Shown here: one piece after another, positions 994 through 57,884 of the stretch
Layout of the letters: each line of letters starts with the position of its first letter
How positions within the stretch are numbered: position 1 is the first letter of the stretch
DNA from: Acetomicrobium hydrogeniformans
GTDB lineage: Bacteria > Synergistota > Synergistia > Synergistales > JAFGMB01
DNA: 64,000 nucleotides
NCBI GenBank assembly: GCA_016841745.1
Contig: JAENYO010000005.1
Coordinates: 22,439 to 86,438 of the forward strand
Direction of reading: 5' to 3'
The notes under the pieces: model-generated
Told to the model about the DNA's origin: nothing
The model's input: the letters and a program-made list of their open reading frames with translations, nothing else
Databases searched by the model: none
Translations under genes and position numbers: made by a program

Positions 994-3426
994 TTATTCG
1001 ACCAATTCCCAATAAGTGCTGTTAACAGAAGTGCCTATCACAGGCGTTGTGTCTGCCCATTTTTCAAACATCATAACCCTTGACACTCCCCAATATTTCC
1101 CGGTATCTAAGTCGCAATTCGCCAGAAGTCTTATACCGTAAAAATACTGTGCCGTAGTCAATGAAAACAGATCATCGCCAGAGATCCCTGAGAATGTTTG
1201 AACATCGGACCAGGTTTCTGTGTCAGGGTCATATGCCTGAACCTTCATTGAAGTAACACTCTTTGCTAATGAAACTTCCACACTCGCCTGATCAAGATAG
1301 ATGTCCTGGATCAGCGTAGCCTTATTGAACATCTGCCCTATATATGAAACCCCCTTAACGCCCGTTCCAGATTCGCCAGATAGCCATACGGTTTCCCCAA
1401 GATCAGGATCATCGAAAGCATTTTCTTTGGCATAACTTACCGTGTTATATTCACTACTAGCGATCGCCCTCGATGGAGCCACCTCATCTTCGGTGGACGG
1501 AACATAATCTATAGAACAGTAAATATGGCCATCGTAACGGACGATAAGATCCTCTTCCCAGCTCCTGGAGTAGTCGTAATCAGGGATGTAGTATTCTATG
1601 GCCAGAATATTGATGTCCTCGTTCTGTCCATCCTCGATCTTAAGGACCCTCACCCACTTTGCCTCATCAAGCATAGGATAATCTACCTTTTCAACTTCTC
1701 CGACCTCGATGTCGGAATCCTGGAGTCCAAGGGAAAAGGTCAGATAAAGGAGGGCATTTTCTGCCTGTCCCAGTAGATAGTCGGCCATGGCCTGGGCCTG
1801 GGATTGGCGTGTTATTCCCAGGAGGGAAAACTTCTGACTCCGGACTCCTTCGTTGAGGATCCGCTCATCATTCTGGGCTACAGCAATAACCCTGTCCCAG
1901 TGGCCTCCATCATCCTCTGTAGAAGGATCCACCCACTCAACTTCGATCTTGTTTGGGATCTCATCCTGGGGTTTGATGAAGAACCCGAAGGATCCTTCAA
2001 TAATGTTGTCCCTGGCAAGAAGTTTCTGGTAACTGGTTTCATACTTTTCTATATGGATGGTTATCTGCTCCCGACAGATCAGGTAACCCCGAAAGGATGA
2101 AAGCATTTCCTGCAGGTGATCTATAAAGGATCTTTCCTGATCCAGAACTATATCCATCTCAAATCGTGGATCGCCATTGACGGTTTCATCACAGTAACCG
2201 GCAGAGATCTCCCATGAGCTAGTTCCATCCGGATTCCCAAAATCAATGTCAAAATATTCATCAGGAAGCCCAAGTCCGTATCTTCTGTTCCTCAAAAAAT
2301 CCAGAATGCACCAAACAGGATTCTGGGAATAGCCACTGAGGCCTCCATGCAACACAGCGGATGGAATTATCTCCTCACTTGCCCCTGGAGGTGTCCAGTA
2401 GAGTTTCTGCTTCGTTCCGGAGGGATAATATGTCGGATCCCATTGCCACCAATCTTCATCGCCACCAGAATGGTGTGTGTAAACGGTTCCGCTCAGGATT
2501 CCCCCAAAGGAAGACTCACTTAACCACACTTCTGCTTTCAGGGAATAGATCTGATCAGCCACAAGGGCAATATCTGTTGATTCGGTTATCTGTTCTCCGT
2601 CCAGATAGATCTTCCGGAACCCAGAGGACGTATCGAAGCGGAACTGGTAATTTCCGCTGACCGATGGCTGTAGGTATCCAGTATATTCGGCCACATACCG
2701 CGCTTCACTGAGCTCGTATTCGTTGAACTCGATGTCTGAAACCTCAACTTCAAAGAACTTGCTGCCCTTGTATCGATACCATGTTCCTGTTGTACGGTTA
2801 TATCCCTGAACCACTTTGAAAAAAGAAGCCAAAAGGTTTCCTCCCAGGGAGACCGAAGCACCAGGAGGTGTCCATATAGTCCGGCCTTCTACAATAGCGC
2901 TTATTACAGGGTTGCCTTTTAATTTGGAAGATGACTCAAGATGACAGGCAACATAGGCTGTACCTGGATAACCCAGATGCTTGTCCGAAGGTGCAAGGGC
3001 ATCCACAGACTGGGGAAAGGTCCCAAGGTGTGATGTGAAACTTGAAGTGGTAAGATCTTCAGTCTGCTGATCGGAGGCCATGATATCCGAGATACCAGAG
3101 ATAGGACCCTCAGACATGGAAACAAACATGTCAACCTCTGATCTATCCTCCGTCAGATATCTATGGAAGAAGATATTACCTCCCACCCGTCTGCGCCCAT
3201 AAACCACAGGGACGGGGGTCAGCTGGGTTTCGCTATTCTGCAGAGGGCCAAAGGAATTATTCGGACTTCCTCCCATATCCAGCTTCGGAGCATCAAAAAG
3301 AGAACCTATGGAAGCCCCTACCATCCAGAGCATGCCAGTTGAAAAACCGAAGATCATAGTACCTGCTGGCAGAATCGCACTAGCTCCCAGACCAAGAAGT
3401 GCCCCGGCTAAAGCTCCTATACCCAT
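994..3426 (-). CDS. Phage tail tip protein (lambda gpJ-like) with inserted PA14-like domain
   Basis: An 810-residue tail-tip/host-specificity protein that would form the central hub of the distal tail. Residues 1-50 are glycine-rich and hydrophobic. Residues ~65-180 look like the N-terminal hub (PVPVVYGRRRVGGNIFF), and residues ~360-640 carry the J-family core (PVWCILDFLRNRRYGLGLP, then a fibronectin-like tail). Between them, residues ~195-345, is a PA14-like sugar-binding module (VAEYTGYLQPSVSGNYQF, KIYLDGEQI) bracketed by two WTPPGAS copies at 185-191 and 344-350. The start has GGAGGGGAATTT before the ATG and overlaps the preceding NlpC gene by 10 nt. It is shorter than lambda J (1132 residues). 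The family call is firm; glycan binding is inferred. Confidence 0.85.
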   Translation of the reverse strand: MGIGALAGALLGLGASAILPAGTMIFGFSTGMLWMVGASIGSLFDAPKLDMGGSPNNSFGPLQNSETQLTPVPVVYGRRRVGGNIFFHRYLTEDRSEVDMFVSMSEGPISGISDIMASDQQTEDLTTSSFTSHLGTFPQSVDALAPSDKHLGYPGTAYVACHLESSSKLKGNPVISAIVEGRTIWTPPGASVSLGGNLLASFFKVVQGYNRTTGTWYRYKGSKFFEVEVSDIEFNEYELSEARYVAEYTGYLQPSVSGNYQFRFDTSSGFRKIYLDGEQITESTDIALVADQIYSLKAEVWLSESSFGGILSGTVYTHHSGGDEDWWQWDPTYYPSGTKQKLYWTPPGASEEIIPSAVLHGGLSGYSQNPVWCILDFLRNRRYGLGLPDEYFDIDFGNPDGTSSWEISAGYCDETVNGDPRFEMDIVLDQERSFIDHLQEMLSSFRGYLICREQITIHIEKYETSYQKLLARDNIIEGSFGFFIKPQDEIPNKIEVEWVDPSTEDDGGHWDRVIAVAQNDERILNEGVRSQKFSLLGITRQSQAQAMADYLLGQAENALLYLTFSLGLQDSDIEVGEVEKVDYPMLDEAKWVRVLKIEDGQNEDINILAIEYYIPDYDYSRSWEEDLIVRYDGHIYCSIDYVPSTEDEVAPSRAIASSEYNTVSYAKENAFDDPDLGETVWLSGESGTGVKGVSYIGQMFNKATLIQDIYLDQASVEVSLAKSVTSMKVQAYDPDTETWSDVQTFSGISGDDLFSLTTAQYFYGIRLLANCDLDTGKYWGVSRVMMFEKWADTTPVIGTSVNSTYWELVE

Positions 3427-7732: not shown

Positions 7733-8155
7733 TTACGACTGTATCGCCGGAGTCAATGCTCCGTTACCCTTGAGCTGCAGGGTAAGACCCACTGAATCAT
7801 CTTTGGATCCTGCAGGGTCCCAGTTGGTTACAACAGCATTTCCGGAATATTCTTTTTTACCTGTACCCGTTCCCTGCGGCCTGAGCTTTAAAACCACATC
7901 CGTATTGTCCGTCAGAATAGAATCCTCTATCTCTGACTGGACCGCATCGGCAGGATCATAAAAAAGAGTCACGGATCCAGTCCATGATTTTGAACCGTGA
8001 AGGACCTCCTCCCATTCGGCATTCATGTTTGTCATATCAATGGTTTTTTTATCCACTGAAAGGTTGAAATCCTTAACCTCTCCGAAAGCGGTAGGAGTGG
8101 ATGCTACATTAACCATTAGAACGGCATCTTTGCTGCTACCCTTTGCCAATTGCAT
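7733..8155 (-). CDS. Major tail tube protein
   Basis: A 140-residue protein in the usual place between tail-completion and chaperone genes. It opens MQLAKGSSKDAVLMVN and contains TIDMTNMNAEWEEVLHGSKSWTGSVTLFYD, the pattern of the TP901-1/phi13-type major tail protein family. It polymerises into the tail tube around the tape measure. Its size matches short tube proteins without an added Ig-like domain. Confidence 0.85.
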   Translation of the reverse strand: MQLAKGSSKDAVLMVNVASTPTAFGEVKDFNLSVDKKTIDMTNMNAEWEEVLHGSKSWTGSVTLFYDPADAVQSEIEDSILTDNTDVVLKLRPQGTGTGKKEYSGNAVVTNWDPAGSKDDSVGLTLQLKGNGALTPAIQS

Positions 8156-49457: not shown

Positions 49458-50045
49458 CTAGCCATATAGCTCTTTATTGCGGTTGTTAGCTTTTTCTGCC
49501 AATTCTTTGTAAACGCTTCTTCCGTGTGAGTCCATGCCAACAACAAGGGGTCCAAACTTTGTTGCCTGCAGAATCCACATGGCCTCAGGAACACCAAGCT
49601 CAAGCCAGTACACATCTTCAATATGGGATATGCCATCAGCAAGTACCACAGCACAACCGGGAGCTGCCTGAAGATAAACCTGTCCGGTTTCCTCAAACTG
49701 TTTAAGGCTGTCTTCTGCAAGACCGCCCTTACCAATAATGGCTCGAACTCCCAGGTCCGCCATCATTTTATAGTAGGGCTCCATTCGTATACTGGTGGTA
49801 GGACCGATGACTACAAGGTCATACTTCCCATCATCTCTTTTGCTTACAACCGGACCTGCATGGAAAATAGCAGAACCATCAAAATCGACCGGAAGTTCTT
49901 TTTTCTCTTCCAGAAAGTTTTTAATTGTGAAATGTCCCATATCTCTTGATGTATATACAGGGCCCTTAAGGTAAACAACGTCGCCAACTCTAAGATCTCT
50001 GATCTCTTCTTCTTTTAAAGGTACGGACAATAATTTTTCGGCCAT
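49458..50045 (-). CDS. fumB: Class I fumarase / tartrate dehydratase beta subunit
   Basis: A 195-residue subunit with GDVVYLKGPVYTSRDMGHFT, AIFHAGPVVSKRD and IGPTTSIRMEPYYKMMADLG, the C-terminal domain pattern of Fe-S hydro-lyases. ATG at 50045 has AGGAGG 8 nt upstream. It is 12 nt downstream of the alpha subunit gene. Fumarate is the likely substrate given neighbouring fumC and malic enzyme, but L-tartrate cannot be excluded by sequence reading. Confidence 0.93.
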   Translation of the reverse strand: MAEKLLSVPLKEEEIRDLRVGDVVYLKGPVYTSRDMGHFTIKNFLEEKKELPVDFDGSAIFHAGPVVSKRDDGKYDLVVIGPTTSIRMEPYYKMMADLGVRAIIGKGGLAEDSLKQFEETGQVYLQAAPGCAVVLADGISHIEDVYWLELGVPEAMWILQATKFGPLVVGMDSHGRSVYKELAEKANNRNKELYG

Positions 50046-50057
50046 ATCATACACCTC

Positions 50058-50948
50058 CTATAGGGTAGTTTCTTTTCTCCCATCGGGATACAATCTTATT
50101 CCTGTCCTTCTGGCAGTCCAGCAATGGAAACTTATTGCAGCGGGAGCAATAGCTGTATGAGTTGAAGTAGCTCCTATCTTTACTGCAAGCATGGTGGTAT
50201 CTCCGCCGGTTCCTGCTGCGCCTAAACCAAGACTATTGATATTTTCAAGAAGTTCCTGCTCGAGTTCAGCATACATTGGGTCGGGATTAACATCATCCCA
50301 GCGACGTGTGCTTACGGCCTTTCTGGCAAGCTTACAGGCCACATCCATCTGTCCGCCCAATCCGATACCGATAGCTCCTGGAGGGCAGGGTTTGCCGCCG
50401 CCTTTAATTACAGTGTCCAGAACCCATCTTTTAAGTCCGGCAAAATCGTTCCCTTTTTCAAGTTGTGCTACAGTAAATATCTTCATGGCATTAGCGAGTT
50501 CTGCACCACAGCCTTTAAAACTCAAAAACATCTCCATATATTCCTGTTCCGGGACATAATCAAATTCAAAGTTAGGCACACCAATTCCAGAATTATCACC
50601 AGGGTTTTTCCTGGTAAGGGGGTGGACCATACTTGGACGAAGAAGATGATTCTTTGTTCCTTCGATAAGGGCTTCTGCCCATATTTTCTTGAGGTCCTCA
50701 CCGGGCACAGATTTGTCTCCAAAACTTACATATACCGTTGGGAAACCGGGAGACTGACACACAGGCTTAACCTTTTCTCCTGCCATCTTTGCGTCATCGA
50801 GCATAGCCTGCATGATACTCTTAGCAGTCTGGTTTGTTTCCCTTTTCAGCGCTTTCTGCATTATGTCTGTGACATCGGGTGAAATAGTGGTAGTAGAGTG
50901 ATAGATCATGTCGTACACATGCTTATATAGATCCTGATACATTGCCAA
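50058..50948 (-). CDS. fumA: Class I fumarase / tartrate dehydratase alpha subunit (4Fe-4S)
   Basis: A 296-residue catalytic subunit carrying the oxygen-labile 4Fe-4S cluster; candidate ligands are Cys in KPVCQSPGFP (~63), FKGCGAELANAM (~150) and GKPCPPGAIGIGLGG (~192). It hydrates fumarate to S-malate in the cytoplasm with the beta subunit. A TTG start at 50948 is used since AAGGAGG lies 8 nt upstream. It is 22 nt downstream of the GntR regulator and clearly in its operon. An Fe-S fumarase fits an anaerobic host. Confidence 0.93.
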   Translation of the reverse strand: MAMYQDLYKHVYDMIYHSTTTISPDVTDIMQKALKRETNQTAKSIMQAMLDDAKMAGEKVKPVCQSPGFPTVYVSFGDKSVPGEDLKKIWAEALIEGTKNHLLRPSMVHPLTRKNPGDNSGIGVPNFEFDYVPEQEYMEMFLSFKGCGAELANAMKIFTVAQLEKGNDFAGLKRWVLDTVIKGGGKPCPPGAIGIGLGGQMDVACKLARKAVSTRRWDDVNPDPMYAELEQELLENINSLGLGAAGTGGDTTMLAVKIGATSTHTAIAPAAISFHCWTARRTGIRLYPDGRKETTL

Positions 50949-50970
50949 AGTTACCCCCTCCTTAATAATA

Positions 50971-51699
50971 TTAAATTTCTTCCAAATTTAGGATCTTAGA
51001 TCCGTATTTGTCAGCCAGCACTTTTTCAAGATTACTTTTCACACTTTCAAGATGCTCTTTCATGAATTGAGAAGCGGCGTCGGAATTACCTTCCTTGATA
51101 GAGTTGAGGATCTTTTTGTGCTCTGCCAGAGAAAAGCCAGGTCTCGAAGGTATATTGAAAGTTAGATGGGTACTTCTTTCAATAAGATTTATGACCATAT
51201 TCGTAATAGAAGATAAGATTATGTTACTTATGGAACTGACGATCTCATGATGAAACCTGATAGAACCTTCAACACCGGATCCTCCATTCACTATTTCTTC
51301 TTCCGCAGTTAATAGTGATTCTTCCATTCTCCTTATGCTTTCTTTACTTGCCTCCCTTGCTGCATAACTCACAACAACAGGTTCAAGAACTTCTCTTGTC
51401 TGCATCAGATATTCAAACTCTGTACTCTGATCATTTATAAGCCTGGCCATAGTTTCCTTGATAAACCCGATGTTAGGCTCCAGAACAACACTACCCTTAC
51501 CCTGCCTGGTCTCGATTATTCCAGCAATTTCCAGGATCCGGAGTGCTTCTCTGACGGTAGTCCTGCTTACGGCCAATCTTTTTGCGATTTGTGGTTCGGA
51601 GGGAAGCATATCACCTGGATTCAATCCCTCCCTTTCGATAAGTTTTTTGATCTCCCTGACAGCATCTTCAGACAACCTTTTCGTTTTAAGCCTTTGCAT
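50971..51699 (-). CDS. GntR-family regulator, FadR subgroup
   Basis: A 242-residue regulator. The N-terminal winged helix has LPSEPQIAKRLAVSRTTVREALRILE (~37-62, read in two parts) and the wing GIIETRQGKGSVV. The all-helical FCD C-terminal domain (~95-225) has metal/ligand-type residues in FHHEIVSSI and SLAEHKKILNSI. FCD regulators sense organic acids and many control catabolic operons next to them. It is the first gene of the fumarase-malic enzyme operon and probably regulates it and itself. GGTGG lies 9 nt before the ATG. Effector not known; a C4-dicarboxylate is likely. Confidence 0.92.
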   Translation of the reverse strand: MQRLKTKRLSEDAVREIKKLIEREGLNPGDMLPSEPQIAKRLAVSRTTVREALRILEIAGIIETRQGKGSVVLEPNIGFIKETMARLINDQSTEFEYLMQTREVLEPVVVSYAAREASKESIRRMEESLLTAEEEIVNGGSGVEGSIRFHHEIVSSISNIILSSITNMVINLIERSTHLTFNIPSRPGFSLAEHKKILNSIKEGNSDAASQFMKEHLESVKSNLEKVLADKYGSKILNLEEI

Positions 51700-51946: not shown

Positions 51947-53227
51947 TTACATTAACAGATCCGGCAGGAACATGGCGATCTTCGGGAAAAAAGTAAGTAG
52001 CAATAAGCCAACTACAAGCATAGTTATAATCGGAATAACCTGTTTTATAAGTTTGGTCATCGGTACTTCGCATATTCGGGAAGATACATAAAGGGTCAAC
52101 GCTACCGGAGGAGTTACAAGTCCTATGGCAAGGTTAGTCACCATCAAGGCTCCAAAATACACGGGATCGATGTTATATGCGTGAGCAGCCGGCAACAGCA
52201 ACGGAGCAAAAAGGATTATGGCAGGGGAAGGATCCATAAGCATTCCAGCAACAAGGATAATGGCATCGGCAATAAGAAGGAACCCGATAGGACTGGTGAT
52301 ATTTTCCAGGATCATCTTTGTAAGATTCTGAGGGATCTGTTCCCTGACAAGAACCCAACCGAAAAGGACTACACCTCCGACCACGAACATAATGGTAGCT
52401 GAGGAAATTCCACTTTTAAGGAATATCTCAGGTAAATCCTTGAACGTGAGGGTCCGGTAGATAAAAAGGCCTACGACCATGCTGTAAACAGCAGCAACGG
52501 CGGCTGCTTCAGTTGGAGTAAAAATACCTGAATAAATCCCGCCAACAATGATAACAGGGGTCAACAGAGCCCAGAAAGCCTTTCTTGAGCTCACGAGAAC
52601 ATGCTTCAAGCTAAAACTGGAGATACCACCATAGTTTCTTTTATTTGAAATCCAGTACCCGTAAGCTATTATCATCAGTCCAAAAAGAACCCCGGGACCA
52701 ACTCCTGATAACAGAAGTGAGCCGATCGAGGTATCAGTGGCTGCGCCAAAAACAACCATGGGTATACTGGGAGGAATAAGAATACCCAGTGGACCGGCAG
52801 ATGCTATGATAGCCGCAATAAAACTTTTATCGTATCCGGAACGCTCTGATTCGGGAGCAACCACAGACCCGATAGCTGAAGCGGTAGCGGCACCTGAACC
52901 GGAAACAGCACCGAAAAACATACAGGCCACGGTTGTAACGCTTGCAAGACCGCCCTTAAAGTGGCCAACCATGCTGTTCGCCATATCTATCAACAGTTTG
53001 GACGCCTTTCCGGAACACAGCAAATCCCCAGACAGGATAAACAAGGGTATTGCCAACATGGAAAAAGAATTCATTCCGGCAAAAAAACGAGGTGCAGTGA
53101 TGGATATCATAAAGAAGTCGCCCGTAAGGAACAGATAAAATACGGAGGAAAGACACATGCTCATAGCTATGGGCACATTGAGAAACAGCATGCCAAAGAA
53201 AGCTATAGCAAAAAGAGATATATCCAT
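51947..53227 (-). CDS. dctM: TRAP transporter large membrane subunit (DctM)
   Basis: A 426-residue polytopic protein with about 12 membrane helices. Typical segments: FFGAVSGSGAATASAIGSVV, GPLGILIPPSIPMVVFG, GVGPGVLFGLMI, GIFTPTEAAAVAAVYS and LAIGLVTPPVALTLYV. It couples Na+ entry to uptake of the substrate delivered by DctP. ATG at 53227 overlaps the dctQ stop as TAATG. It is the last gene of dctPQM and the only DctM in the window, so it may also serve the orphan DctP. Confidence 0.95.
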   Translation of the reverse strand: MDISLFAIAFFGMLFLNVPIAMSMCLSSVFYLFLTGDFFMISITAPRFFAGMNSFSMLAIPLFILSGDLLCSGKASKLLIDMANSMVGHFKGGLASVTTVACMFFGAVSGSGAATASAIGSVVAPESERSGYDKSFIAAIIASAGPLGILIPPSIPMVVFGAATDTSIGSLLLSGVGPGVLFGLMIIAYGYWISNKRNYGGISSFSLKHVLVSSRKAFWALLTPVIIVGGIYSGIFTPTEAAAVAAVYSMVVGLFIYRTLTFKDLPEIFLKSGISSATIMFVVGGVVLFGWVLVREQIPQNLTKMILENITSPIGFLLIADAIILVAGMLMDPSPAIILFAPLLLPAAHAYNIDPVYFGALMVTNLAIGLVTPPVALTLYVSSRICEVPMTKLIKQVIPIITMLVVGLLLLTFFPKIAMFLPDLLM

Positions 53228-53715
53228 TAGCAACCACCTCTTAATATTTTGACCTGTTCAAACATTTGGCCAATACTGATAATAAACATCATGAAACCTG
53301 TAATTGGTACGGCTGAATAAATTATGGCAAGAGGAAAAGGTCCGAATTCACAACCAACTCCCATATTGGCCATCATGTATCCATAGCCTGTGGTAGTCAG
53401 GATAACTGTAAAGATTATTACAAATACCGATGCGATCAGATTAATGATATTCTTTGTTTTTTCAGATTTTCTGGTTTCGACGAGAATATCTACTGATAAA
53501 TGGCATTTCATTTTCAATGCCTTGATAGAACCATACAAAGATGCCCAAACAAAATTATATCTGGCCATTTCTTCCGTCCAGGCAGCAGGAATATGAAGTA
53601 AAAATCGATTTACGACCTGGAAAAAAACCATCGCAACGAGCGAAAACATCAGAATCGTGATAAGAATGTCTACAACCTTCATCATCTTCGCATCTAGTCT
53701 TGCGAGTGCTTCCAA
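53227..53715 (-). CDS. dctQ: TRAP transporter small membrane subunit (DctQ)
   Basis: A 162-residue protein with four predicted membrane helices and the DctQ pattern WTEEMARYNFVWASLYGSIKALKMKCHLSVD (read in parts at residues ~40-70). It is required with DctM for transport. Start TTG follows GGGGGTGG. Separated from dctP by a strong hairpin. Confidence 0.92.
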   Translation of the reverse strand: MEALARLDAKMMKVVDILITILMFSLVAMVFFQVVNRFLLHIPAAWTEEMARYNFVWASLYGSIKALKMKCHLSVDILVETRKSEKTKNIINLIASVFVIIFTVILTTTGYGYMMANMGVGCEFGPFPLAIIYSAVPITGFMMFIISIGQMFEQVKILRGGC

Positions 53716-53790: not shown

Positions 53791-54786
53791 CTATTTATTT
53801 GACAATGCCTTTATCTGATCGATTGTTTCCTTCCACTCGGGATGCTTGTCGTACATGGGCATCATTGCTGCTCTCCAGACCTGTCTGTCGGGTTCATAAT
53901 AGTTCATGCCGTTATCTTTAAGGAACTGGGTATCGACAACGTCTGCCTCTTCAGCAATTTTTCTCTGCCATACAGCTGCTTCATGAGCAGATTCCTCAAG
54001 GATCTTCTGATCCTCTTCAGAGAAAGAATAGAATTTCTTGGCACTCATGAGAACAGGCTCAAGAAGGAATGCCATGTGATTGGCACAGGTATAATTTGCT
54101 ACTTCGAAATGCTTGCTCTTACGAACATTAATGGGACCCTGGATCTCTGCATCAACAGCTCCAAGCTGAAGTGCTGAGTAAACTTCTCCGAATGCCATGG
54201 GAGTAACAACGGCTCCGAGCATCTCTCCGGTTTCAACGAAAACTGCGGAGGGCTGGACCCTGAGTTTTACACCCTTCATATCTTCCGGAGACTTCACAGG
54301 AATACGTGAAACGATATTGTAAAGACCATTATTGAAGACGGTCAGAACCTTGATCCCCTTGTTCTCGACGGGTTTAAAAACTTTCTTACCTATCTCACCA
54401 TCGATTACTGTCCAGGTATGTTCCCAGTCATCAAAAATAAAGGGCAGACAGATTACACCGGCATCAGGATCATATCCTTCAAGAATACCCTGCCAGACAA
54501 GGCAGGCATCCAGTTGACCAGCCGCTACCATTTCAGCAAGCTGTTTCTGTTTACCTAACTGGCCGCTTGGATATACAACGACTTCTATTCTTCCGTTGGT
54601 TCTTTCCTTGACAAGTTCACCAAACTTCACAGAACCCAGATGGTATGGGTGGTTCTCCGGCATTTCGTGAGCAACACGAAGCTTGACAGTCTTAGCATCT
54701 GCTGGTACTGGAGCAAAAGCTGATACCACCAATAAAGCAAGACAAAGCACACCAATTACAGCAATTCCCTTTTTCAAAATCCTCAT
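53791..54786 (-). CDS. dctP: TRAP transporter solute-binding protein (DctP)
   Basis: A 331-residue binding protein with a signal peptide ending about residue 31 (PVPADA-KTVKLRVAHEMPE). Key segments: HPYHLGSVKFGELVKERTNG, YPSGQLGKQKQLAEMVAAGQ, the carboxylate-binding Arg in GVKLRVQPSAVFVETG and GAVDAEIQGPINVRKSKH, where most family members have GQENP. This change is shared with the orphan DctP at 37618, implying a similar, perhaps unusual ligand. First gene of dctPQM, with a conserved motif 127 nt upstream. AGAGGAGGG precedes the ATG. Confidence 0.95.
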   Translation of the reverse strand: MRILKKGIAVIGVLCLALLVVSAFAPVPADAKTVKLRVAHEMPENHPYHLGSVKFGELVKERTNGRIEVVVYPSGQLGKQKQLAEMVAAGQLDACLVWQGILEGYDPDAGVICLPFIFDDWEHTWTVIDGEIGKKVFKPVENKGIKVLTVFNNGLYNIVSRIPVKSPEDMKGVKLRVQPSAVFVETGEMLGAVVTPMAFGEVYSALQLGAVDAEIQGPINVRKSKHFEVANYTCANHMAFLLEPVLMSAKKFYSFSEEDQKILEESAHEAAVWQRKIAEEADVVDTQFLKDNGMNYYEPDRQVWRAAMMPMYDKHPEWKETIDQIKALSNK

Positions 54787-54912
54787 TAAATTCCCTCCTC
54801 TAGAAATAATGTATATCTACTTCATGAACCTAAAGCTATTGTGAAAAAAATATTTATGTAAAACAATTCTTTCACATTGGTAGATGTATCATATTGGCTG
54901 TTCAAAACAAAT

Positions 54913-54943
54913 ACAATATTATGAACATTATTAATATGAAATA
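54913..54943 (-). promoter_or_regulatory. Shared upstream motif, copy 2
   Basis: ATGAACATT ATTAATATG tandem 9-mers in the same ACAAT ... GAAATA frame as at 39876-39907. It lies 127 nt upstream of the dctP start. Probably the binding site of a common activator, with the two-component regulator encoded 700 bp away as first candidate. Confidence 0.65.
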
Positions 54944-55030
54944 AAAATGCTTGTAAAAACAACGAGGTGGGCTGGTTCATCAAAGCCTCAATATGCAGAG
55001 GTATTGCTCCTATAGAAGGGGAAAACCGAT

Positions 55031-55058
55031 ACAGAGCCTTTATGAAACAAGGCTCTGT
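55031..55058. terminator. Hairpin after the selenoprotein candidate gene
   Basis: Perfect 10-bp stem ACAGAGCCTT / AAGGCTCTGT with an 8-nt loop, 65 nt beyond the stop at 55124. T run absent, so termination is uncertain. Confidence 0.55.
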
Positions 55059-55123
55059 AGGAAATACTCAAATAATTGTATTTGTTGCACGTACTGAAAA
55101 AGTCTGATGAAAAGGTTCTTTTA

Positions 55124-55561
55124 TCATGGTAAAGCTGACTGCAGGCTGTCCATATATTCCAAACCTGAAAGCATGGCCTTTATCTTTAATTCCTCGCATG
55201 CATGATCCGGATTCCGGGCTTCAAGTAGAGCAATGGGTCTCAGCTCACTGCAAAGAAGACTATGAAATTTATTTTCGAAGGAAGCGGCAAAATCACAACA
55301 GATATTCTTTCCTTTTTCATCGGAAATACCATTGGATCTTATCCATACACCAATGAACATCAAGAAACCCTCAACAAGCCCGCATTGAGCACCATATCTT
55401 CCTGCACCGTTCATTCCGAGAGCAGAATCGAAAACCTGAGAATGTATCTTCAGCGAGTAGACTTCTTCCAGAAGTCTTAAGGATGCCATTGCTCAATTGA
55501 TCTTTTCAACATGAAAATAATAATTAACCTTACGACGGATATCTTCTTCTGCAAATTTCAT
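55124..55561 (-). CDS. C_GCAxxG_C_C family redox protein, probable selenoprotein (in-frame UGA)
   Basis: The frame starts with ATG at 55561 (AAGGTGG 12 nt upstream) as MKFAEEDIRRKVNYYFHVEK then IN, meets TGA at 55495-55493, and continues in the same frame for 122 codons. Reading UGA as selenocysteine gives 145 residues with U23 at the first conserved Cys of the C_GCAxxG_C_C family (family pattern: NCA then a leucine-rich helix). C60-G ... G65 and the later C104 and C122 are in place. A hairpin with a GGA loop 23 nt after the UGA resembles a bacterial SECIS. Without readthrough an ATG at 55489 would give a 121-residue protein lacking the first redox residue. Role: small thiol/selenol redox protein. 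Sec insertion is inferred. Confidence 0.75.
55459..55477 (-). promoter_or_regulatory. SECIS-like hairpin
   Basis: On the minus strand AGACTTCT-GGA-AGAAGTCT forms an 8-bp stem with a 3-nt loop. The loop begins GG and is 23 nt downstream of the in-frame UGA, inside the 16-37 nt window known for bacterial SECIS elements, which need a G in the apical loop. Confidence 0.6.
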
Positions 55562-55618
55562 ATTAATTTTCACCACCTTGTCAGGGACTACATTCAGAAA
55601 AAAGGAATTTCCCCAATT

Positions 55619-56305
55619 CTATTTTAAAAACTGATATCTGCTGACAGGCCTTCCGATTTCCTGATAATGCAATTCTTCAACTAATTTCCCAGCATTCAGC
55701 ATATATTTTACATATCTCATTACAGTAACTCTTGATAAACTGGTTAACAACGCAACCTGTTCAACAGACACCGGGTCAGACTCATTCTTGAAAACATCAA
55801 TAATGTTCTCCAAAGTCTGTTTCTGAATCCCCTTAGGCAAAACATCGGGAACTACTGATGTCATACCGGGGCGAATAACATTATCTATCTCTTCCTGACT
55901 GAATGTTCTTTCTCTTTTATTATGGATCGTTTCAAAATGTTTCAGAAAAGAATTCATTGTTTTCTTGAACCGCGAGAAATCGAAAGGTTTAAGAAGATAA
56001 TCAAAAACTCCAAGTCTGACCGCCTCCTGTACCAGATCCCCCTCTTGAGCAGCTGTTATCATTATTACATCCAGATCAGTTCTGGTTTCCCGGATCTTGT
56101 GCAAAACCCCAAAACCATCCACCTCAGGCATGAAAATATCCAGTATGACCAGGTTAACATCAAGAGTCTCCAGAAGAGTTAGGGCTTCCTGACCTGTTCT
56201 GGCAATTCCAATTACCTCAAATCCATCAATAACTGATACAAAACGCCTGTGAAGATCTGCAACGGTCGGATCGTCATCAACAATCAATACTTGTATTTTC
56301 TTCAC
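55619..56305 (-). CDS. Response regulator, CitB/DcuR (MaeR) family
   Basis: A 228-residue response regulator. Receiver domain: QVLIVDDDPTVADLHRRFV, phosphoacceptor Asp in NLVILDIFMPEVDGFG (~53), ITAAQEGD and the Lys in FDYLLKPFDF. A linker and a C-terminal HTH (VEQVALLTSLSRVTVMRYVK) follow, the CitB/DcuR/MaeR layout for C4-dicarboxylate or citrate control. A GTG start at 56305 (AAGG 8 nt upstream) overlaps the kinase gene by 29 nt. It probably activates the TRAP and fumarate-malate genes in response to an external acid. Confidence 0.93.
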   Translation of the reverse strand: MKKIQVLIVDDDPTVADLHRRFVSVIDGFEVIGIARTGQEALTLLETLDVNLVILDIFMPEVDGFGVLHKIRETRTDLDVIMITAAQEGDLVQEAVRLGVFDYLLKPFDFSRFKKTMNSFLKHFETIHNKRERTFSQEEIDNVIRPGMTSVVPDVLPKGIQKQTLENIIDVFKNESDPVSVEQVALLTSLSRVTVMRYVKYMLNAGKLVEELHYQEIGRPVSRYQFLK

Positions 56306-57884
56306 AAAAATCACCTTCCGGGATAGAGAGGTATATAGTTGTCCCTTTGCCAGGACTCGAATCAATCTTAATTTTACCATTCAAAGAATCAGTGAGAGAT
56401 TTGACGAGAAAAAGACCGTAACCTCTTTTACCACCCGTTTTAGTCGTAAACCCTTTCTCAAAGAGCTTTTCTCTCGCATCTTCTGTAATACCTGAACCAT
56501 TATCATTGATGGAAATATCCATACCTGTATTTGACCCCTTCATAGTGAGTGTTATTCTCTTATTTGCACTTTCACTCTCCAGGACTGCTTCCATTGAATT
56601 TTCGATCAGGTTACCAAGGCAAACCAGGATCGAGTTTATATCAATCCCTTCCAGTAAACCCAAAGAACTCTCCTCTGTTAGAACAAGCAGTATTCCTAAT
56701 TCCCTGCATCTGCCTATCTTTCCTAAGAGCAATCCCGCAATTGAAGAATTCTGTATTCTTTTCATTACAAACTCGATCATTTCCTGCTGAACATTCGATT
56801 CATTATTCATGAAACTGATGGCATCTTCATAGTCTCCAATCTGTACCAGGCCTGAGATTGTATGAAGTTTATTTAAAAAATCGTGTTTTTGTACCCTGAG
56901 AGCTTCATTTTGAACCCTGAGGACCTCAGCCATTTTCTTCGCCCCCGTCAACTCTTCTGCCAAAAGCTGCATTTCATCTATATTTCTGAAACTCGCGATA
57001 GCTCCATATACCTGGCCATCAACTTTAATAGGAATTCTGTTGGTTATGATCTTCAAATTGATTACGCTCTGTTCCTGGTCATACTGAGCTTTTCCCGTTC
57101 GAATGACCTCCATAAGTTTTGAATTTGGAACAAAATTTGTCACGTCCTTGTTCTCAACCGGATCATTCTCACCTATACCAAGCATTTTTCTGGCCTGTTT
57201 ATTCATAAAAACAATTTTTCCTTCTTTATCTGCAGCCACTATACCCTCCTTGACTGATTCAAGAAGGGCCTCCCTCTCCCTGAGCAGAGATGCTAATTGA
57301 TATGGTTCCATTCCGAACATGGAGTTTTTTATATTTTTTGCAAGAAAGTGGGCACAGATTATTCCGATCAGAAGACCCAGCACTATTGCAAAAATAATCT
57401 TCTTCCTCAAGCTCCATATCAATAGATTGATATCGCGTGTCCACAGGTAGACAGCAATTGCCCCGACATGTTCCTCTTGTCTATATACAGGAACATACGC
57501 TCTAAGGGTAGGCCCAAGGGTTGTCACTTCCGGATAGGATGAATAAGGGATCCCCTCTATAACTGGACCAGCTTTGCTGCCAATGGCCAGGATATATTTC
57601 ACTTCAGCTTTTTTCCTTATCTCTTCCACTATGGGCTGAACGATCTGGTCACCGTCAGGCCAGTCAATATATTTCTTGATATCGGGGATCCCTGCTACAG
57701 AATAGGCAATGTCCCTCGCATAGGAAGCAAGTTGGTCCTGAAATTTCAAGACCATGAATCTTTCTATCAAAATACCTGCAACTATCAAAGTAAGCACTAT
57801 AATTGTTACGATAAGCAACATGAACTTATATTGAATAGGGAAAGATTTTCTCTGGGTAAACCCGATCTGGAGCACCTCCTCCAA
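56277..57884 (-). CDS. Sensor histidine kinase, CitA/DcuS (MaeK) family
   Basis: A 535-residue membrane sensor. Membrane helices near residues 22-42 and 160-182 flank an extracytoplasmic PDC-type ligand domain containing TLGPTLRAYVPVYRQEEHVGAI. A PAS domain follows (LLESVKEGIVAADKEGKIVFMN, ~208-230), then the phosphoacceptor His in RVQKHDFLNKLHTISGLVQ and an ATPase domain (LGNLIENSMEAVLE, DNGSGITEDAREKLFEKGFTT, KRGYGLFLVKSL). This is the citrate/C4-dicarboxylate sensor layout. The start is uncertain: a TTG at 57884 lies in a purine-rich GGAGGAGGTG stretch. It forms an operon with the regulator. Confidence 0.92.
   Translation of the reverse strand: MEEVLQIGFTQRKSFPIQYKFMLLIVTIIVLTLIVAGILIERFMVLKFQDQLASYARDIAYSVAGIPDIKKYIDWPDGDQIVQPIVEEIRKKAEVKYILAIGSKAGPVIEGIPYSSYPEVTTLGPTLRAYVPVYRQEEHVGAIAVYLWTRDINLLIWSLRKKIIFAIVLGLLIGIICAHFLAKNIKNSMFGMEPYQLASLLREREALLESVKEGIVAADKEGKIVFMNKQARKMLGIGENDPVENKDVTNFVPNSKLMEVIRTGKAQYDQEQSVINLKIITNRIPIKVDGQVYGAIASFRNIDEMQLLAEELTGAKKMAEVLRVQNEALRVQKHDFLNKLHTISGLVQIGDYEDAISFMNNESNVQQEMIEFVMKRIQNSSIAGLLLGKIGRCRELGILLVLTEESSLGLLEGIDINSILVCLGNLIENSMEAVLESESANKRITLTMKGSNTGMDISINDNGSGITEDAREKLFEKGFTTKTGGKRGYGLFLVKSLTDSLNGKIKIDSSPGKGTTIYLSIPEGDFCEENTSIDC

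Follow-up and report, generated by a model that had tools for sequence, protein, structure and literature searches.

Selenoproteins of the C-GCAxxG-C-C family have been listed in two reviews (PMC9312934 and PMC13188914, the latter giving forms 1 and 2), and the NCBIfam model TIGR01909 is titled 'C-GCAxxG-C-C family (seleno)protein'. Two Sec proteins of the family that have been published are MGD8741185.1 and WP_012158890.1. Since members carrying selenocysteine (Sec) are listed in both reviews, a Sec member of this family is to be expected in principle. A HUGP/GUXX-star fusion has also been listed, with two Sec (PMC13188914). The sequence analyzed here, referred to as the window, is a stretch of 64,000 nucleotides from Acetomicrobium hydrogeniformans, in which a preliminary description had proposed a selenoprotein of this family; the gene, its signals and its neighbors are as follows.

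49458-51699, minus strand: GntR/FCD regulator and two-subunit fumarase (PF00392/PF07729, PF05681, PF05683)
51947-53715, minus strand: DctQ and DctM, of the same TRAP transporter as DctP (PF04290, PF06808)
53791-54786, minus strand: DctP, TRAP transporter binding protein (PF03480)
55030-55059, minus strand: terminator-like hairpin between the window gene and dctP; such hairpins are no more numerous in the region than in shuffled sequences
55124-55561, minus strand: predicted selenoprotein gene (C_GCAxxG_C_C family) of 145 codons and a stop, with Sec as codon 23
55124-55126, minus strand: terminal TGA, with a TAA directly after it (sequence read)
55459-55477, minus strand: bacterial SECIS-like hairpin, AGACUUCU-GGA-AGAAGUCU, whose GGA loop begins 23 nt past the UGA
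55493-55495, minus strand: in-frame TGA, candidate Sec codon, in the column of the first conserved Cys (77 Cys and 3 TGA among 80 relatives)
55572-55579, minus strand: RBS-like AAGGTGGT, 10 nt 5' of the ATG at 55561 (direct sequence reading)
55619-56380, minus strand: response regulator, the next gene upstream (PF00072)
56277-57884, minus strand: sensor histidine kinase with PAS and SpoOB-type domains (PF02518, PF14689, PF00989)

The reading frame given in the preliminary description was recovered exactly: on the minus strand it runs from the ATG at 55561 through 22 codons to the TGA at 55495-55493, and then through 122 sense codons to the stop, the TGA at codon 23 being the sole internal stop between 55561 and 55124, with no frameshift. 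Translation with table 11 yielded only the 121-aa ORF 55489-55124, which is the truncation that had been anticipated for an annotation taking TGA as a stop. The terminal codon of the window gene (55126-55124) is also a TGA, so one codon would serve both Sec and stop in a single gene; two of the relatives treated below (L077 and L081) likewise end in TGA.

The assignment to the C_GCAxxG_C_C family was upheld, as the window protein matched PF09719 with 45.9 bits (E 7e-12), above the curated cut-off of 27; the match spans residues 22-125 and therefore takes in the TGA codon itself. Against TIGR01909 the score was 32.5 bits, under the cut-off of 47.4, placing the protein as related to that curated subfamily and outside it. 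The four Cys positions of the PF09719 family are present as U23, C60, C88 and C104, and with C122 the conserved Cys/Sec positions number five. The motif at C60 reads CGLVEG as compared with CGAxxG, with the Cys and both Gly retained and Leu in place of Ala.

Relatives were collected by searching genome contigs with an alignment query, which gave 80 named loci, while a single-sequence query gave none. The column of codon 23 held Cys in 77 of these relatives and TGA in the remaining three, in agreement with the earlier claim that the TGA falls at the first conserved Cys, and the other four conserved Cys were retained in all 80. The TGA relatives were L039 (also recorded as L024/L039), from Synergistota, L077, from a Peptococcaceae MAG, and L081, from a Desulfovibrionales MAG; in L077 and L081, which are distant relatives, the TGA stands at 8046-8048 and 3358-3360, respectively. 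In a 50-member alignment the column was invariant when Sec was counted as Cys, as were those of C60, C88, C104 and C122. A survey of 395 Desulfobacterota genomes gave ten confident subfamily matches and one weak match; nine of the confident matches had no in-frame stop, and the tenth was the L081 gene, already counted.

The L039 protein is about 50% identical to the window protein and has its TGA at the same codon, and the two genes formed a clade with support of 100/98. Three changes of state are needed on the tree for the four Sec members, among which Sec may have had a single origin. A Cys paralogue in the same genome (C8:503766) is 39% identical to the window protein and is not its nearest relative on the tree. 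Between the window gene and L039, pN was 0.25 and pS 0.99 before the TGA (15 codons), and pN was 0.33 and pS 0.80 after it (115 codons), figures that are to be read qualitatively because pS is near saturation. Judged from these substitutions, purifying selection is acting on both sides of the TGA, a pattern not expected if the TGA were a stop, the gene a pseudogene or the leader dispensable.

The search for sel genes recommended in the preliminary description found the whole set in the source genome (3.04 Mb, 99.6% complete): SelA (464 bits), SelB (362 bits), a tRNA-Sec with anticodon UCA (78 bits) and SelD. Neither of the two observations that had been named as contrary to the proposal, absence of selB/selC or homologues lacking a conserved Cys at this position, was made. 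The selD gene has its own in-frame TGA, in the motif TSG-U-AAKI (L018, position 1531), so that SelD is itself a predicted selenoprotein. Three GrdB genes (L148-L150; C7:363790, C3:124593 and C8:443615) are interrupted in frame by a TGA near residue 347, beyond which the frame continues for about 85 codons. The TGAs of SelD and GrdB indicate that decoding of UGA as Sec occurs at several further sites in this organism. No formate dehydrogenase above the Fdh-alpha cut-off was found in the source genome for SECIS comparison. SelB and tRNA-Sec scored over their cut-offs in every genome with a TGA member; among Synergistota with the Cys form only, both were present in G104, and G001, which is 86% complete, had the tRNA-Sec and no SelB match.

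Two further copies of the family were seen in the source genome. The one at C8:407785-408123 (L038, L130, L135) was considered as a second family selenoprotein and rejected, as its TGA replaces a Gly (GGGMG); it has a frameshift near the first Cys, just upstream of the TGA, and is probably a pseudogene, judging by its reading frame. The other (C5:140-541, L134), the fourth PF09719 copy of the genome, lies at a contig edge, scores 81.9 bits and has no internal stops.

The hairpin reported at 55459-55477 was found as described, with 8 perfect bp, a GGA triloop 23 nt past the UGA and a folding energy of -7.8 kcal/mol. All of these values fall within the bSECIS model of PMC13188914, which sets a loop of 3-9 nt with a G in its first two bases, a stem of 4-16 bp, a distance of 16-37 nt from the UGA and an MFE of -7.5 kcal/mol or lower. 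No Rfam match was obtained in 54700-55700. The L039 hairpin has 7 bp, a GGC loop and the same 23-nt spacing, and, by reading of the two sequences, one compensated pair (G-C to A-U) relative to that of the window gene. The L077 hairpin is made of 4+4 bp around a bulged U with a GGU loop, and is not of the 7-bp GGN form; L081 has a different loop and lacks the 7-bp GGN hairpin. None of the 77 Cys relatives had a GGN triloop on a stem of more than 3 bp at the place of the hairpin. In the source genome, SelD and the three GrdB have stems of 6-7 bp with GGC or GGU triloops 17-18 nt past the TGA, suggesting that the GGN triloop is the SECIS style of this organism, and the window hairpin fits this pattern (6-7 bp, GGN triloop). 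Each of the three GrdB copies has a SECIS-like hairpin with a GGU triloop; that of L150 is absent from the minimum-energy fold of its segment.

A chance test for hairpins with a GGN triloop, a stem of at least 7 bp and a spacing of 16-25 found them after 0.10% of all window positions, after three of the 2451 TGAs of the window and after three of the 2636 in-frame codons of nine neighboring genes. Two second-site candidates in the window (TGA plus hairpin, at +35511 and -17488) were rejected, having nearby stops in frame and no recognizable protein. The folding energy of the hairpin region was ordinary with respect to dinucleotide shuffles (z -0.10). Random synonymous recodings that keep the same protein yielded such a hairpin in 7% of cases, indicating that the amino-acid sequence itself favors it, and in 21% under a looser rule that accepts every G-loop stem from 8 bp upward. 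With an ordinary energy and these recoding frequencies, the hairpin alone is only supportive, and it is the comparative evidence that decides.

This evidence was weighed against two other explanations of the TGA. Were it a true stop, a restart at the ATG at 55489, which lies 3 nt past the TGA and opens the ORF given by table 11, could give a functional product of 121 aa that lacks the first Cys; however, the stretch preceding the TGA shows homology to the relatives and is under purifying selection, direct reading showed no good ribosome site upstream of 55489, L077 and L081 have no ATG at that place, and such a product would lose a column that does not vary in the 50-member alignment when Sec is taken as Cys, all of which makes a restart very improbable. 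A nonsense TGA arisen from TGT or TGC, by pseudogenization or by sequencing error, would require a single base change, and the paralogue at C8:407785 in the same genome does look pseudogenic, with its frameshift and its TGA at a Gly codon. Yet the same TGA codon occurs in L039, a relative of about 50% identity that comes from a separate assembly and is joined to the window gene in the clade of 100/98 support, selection is seen on both sides of the TGA, and there is no further stop or frameshift, so that this explanation is scarcely credible. That the UGA at codon 23 is read as Sec is favored by the frame, by homology before and after this codon, by the pairing of Cys and Sec in one column and by the presence of the machinery for Sec; on this sequence evidence the window gene almost certainly encodes a selenoprotein.

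Beyond the terminator-like hairpin, the downstream order is dctP, dctQ, dctM, the GntR/FCD regulator and the two-subunit fumarase. The TGA gene of L039 lies directly 3' of dctPQM, the GntR-type regulator there matches that of the window, and fumarase-like and malic-enzyme-like proteins were recognized in its vicinity by reading of ORFs. TRAP linkage was rejected as a general trait of the subfamily, being found at only a handful of the 80 loci; the TRAP/FadR neighborhood is common to the window gene and L039 only, and may therefore characterize the Sec clade of Synergistota. As the two-component system and the TRAP/fumarase cluster adjoin the gene, a role in dicarboxylate or similar organic-acid metabolism is plausible.

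The AlphaFold model of the window protein is all helical, with a mean pLDDT of 91.5. The subfamily profile matched no solved structure, whereas the broader family profile matched split-Soret cytochrome c (PDB 1h21) over 55 residues (E 0.0011), with the sequence similarity confined to the CGAxxG segment; the top Foldseek match in the PDB was the same 1h21 chain, at a query TM-score of 0.60 and a non-significant E of 2.4. This match, and the title of entry 1h21, which reports a novel iron centre, suggest a possible iron-sulfur centre in the C_GCAxxG_C_C family, with the conserved Cys/Sec as its ligands. According to the mechanism proposed here, SelB, the tRNA-Sec(UCA) and the GGA-loop hairpin would bring about Sec insertion at UGA codon 23, giving a 145-residue cytosolic, all-helical C_GCAxxG_C_C protein. 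In this protein U23 would either be a reactive selenol that pairs with a Cys of the conserved set, or share with the Cys the binding of an iron-sulfur centre resembling the iron centre found in split-Soret cytochrome c.

Redox is the most probable biochemical role of the protein, a redox or Fe-S role being put at about an even chance. Sec in proteins is usually used for its reactivity, and the PF09719 family is annotated as putative redox-active; both points, general as they are, speak against a non-redox alternative in which Sec is inserted and the metal bound by the five Cys/Sec would serve structure, sensing or trafficking. The invariance of all five positions would, however, be as fitting for a set of ligands as for a redox centre, and a two-component system and a transporter adjoin the gene; we regard such a metal-binding protein as possible, although unlikely. 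A more specific and decidedly speculative form of the Fe-S proposal would make U23 a direct ligand of an iron-sulfur centre related to the iron centre of split-Soret cytochrome c, and would tie the Synergistota selenoprotein clade to the transport of organic acids by TRAP systems; if true, a selenolate serving naturally as ligand of such a centre would be unusual.

Compared with the known systems, the window protein belongs to the same family as the PF09719/TIGR01909 proteins, with Sec at the first of the four Cys, the comparison with the published Sec forms being one of family membership; it differs from TIGR01909 in that its subfamily shows the motif CGLVEG and conserves a fifth Cys (PxHxC). 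The profile of the HUGP/GUXX-star fusion selenoprotein (NCBIfam NF045501) was matched weakly by 22 of 50 subfamily members, whereas the window protein did not match it at E 0.001, and the model is longer, with 236 positions. Split-Soret cytochrome c, the best fold match and a profile match around CGAxxG, is a dihaem c-type cytochrome, whereas the window protein has neither a haem motif (no CxxCH in its translation) nor an evident signal peptide, the similarity being remote; the possible link nevertheless offers a concrete cofactor hypothesis for a poorly understood family. The SelD and GrdB genes of the source genome share with the window gene an in-frame TGA and a GGN triloop hairpin, although they encode unrelated proteins and their loops lie 17-18 nt past the UGA instead of 23. 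Selenoproteins of the C-GCAxxG-C-C family being already known, the window gene adds a well-supported Sec member, and with it a well-supported Synergistota Sec clade, to a family with almost no biochemistry; its correct reading mends a gene that standard annotation would truncate, and the occurrence of this Sec form and the Cys paralogue C8:503766 in one genome provides a clean test of the contribution of Sec.
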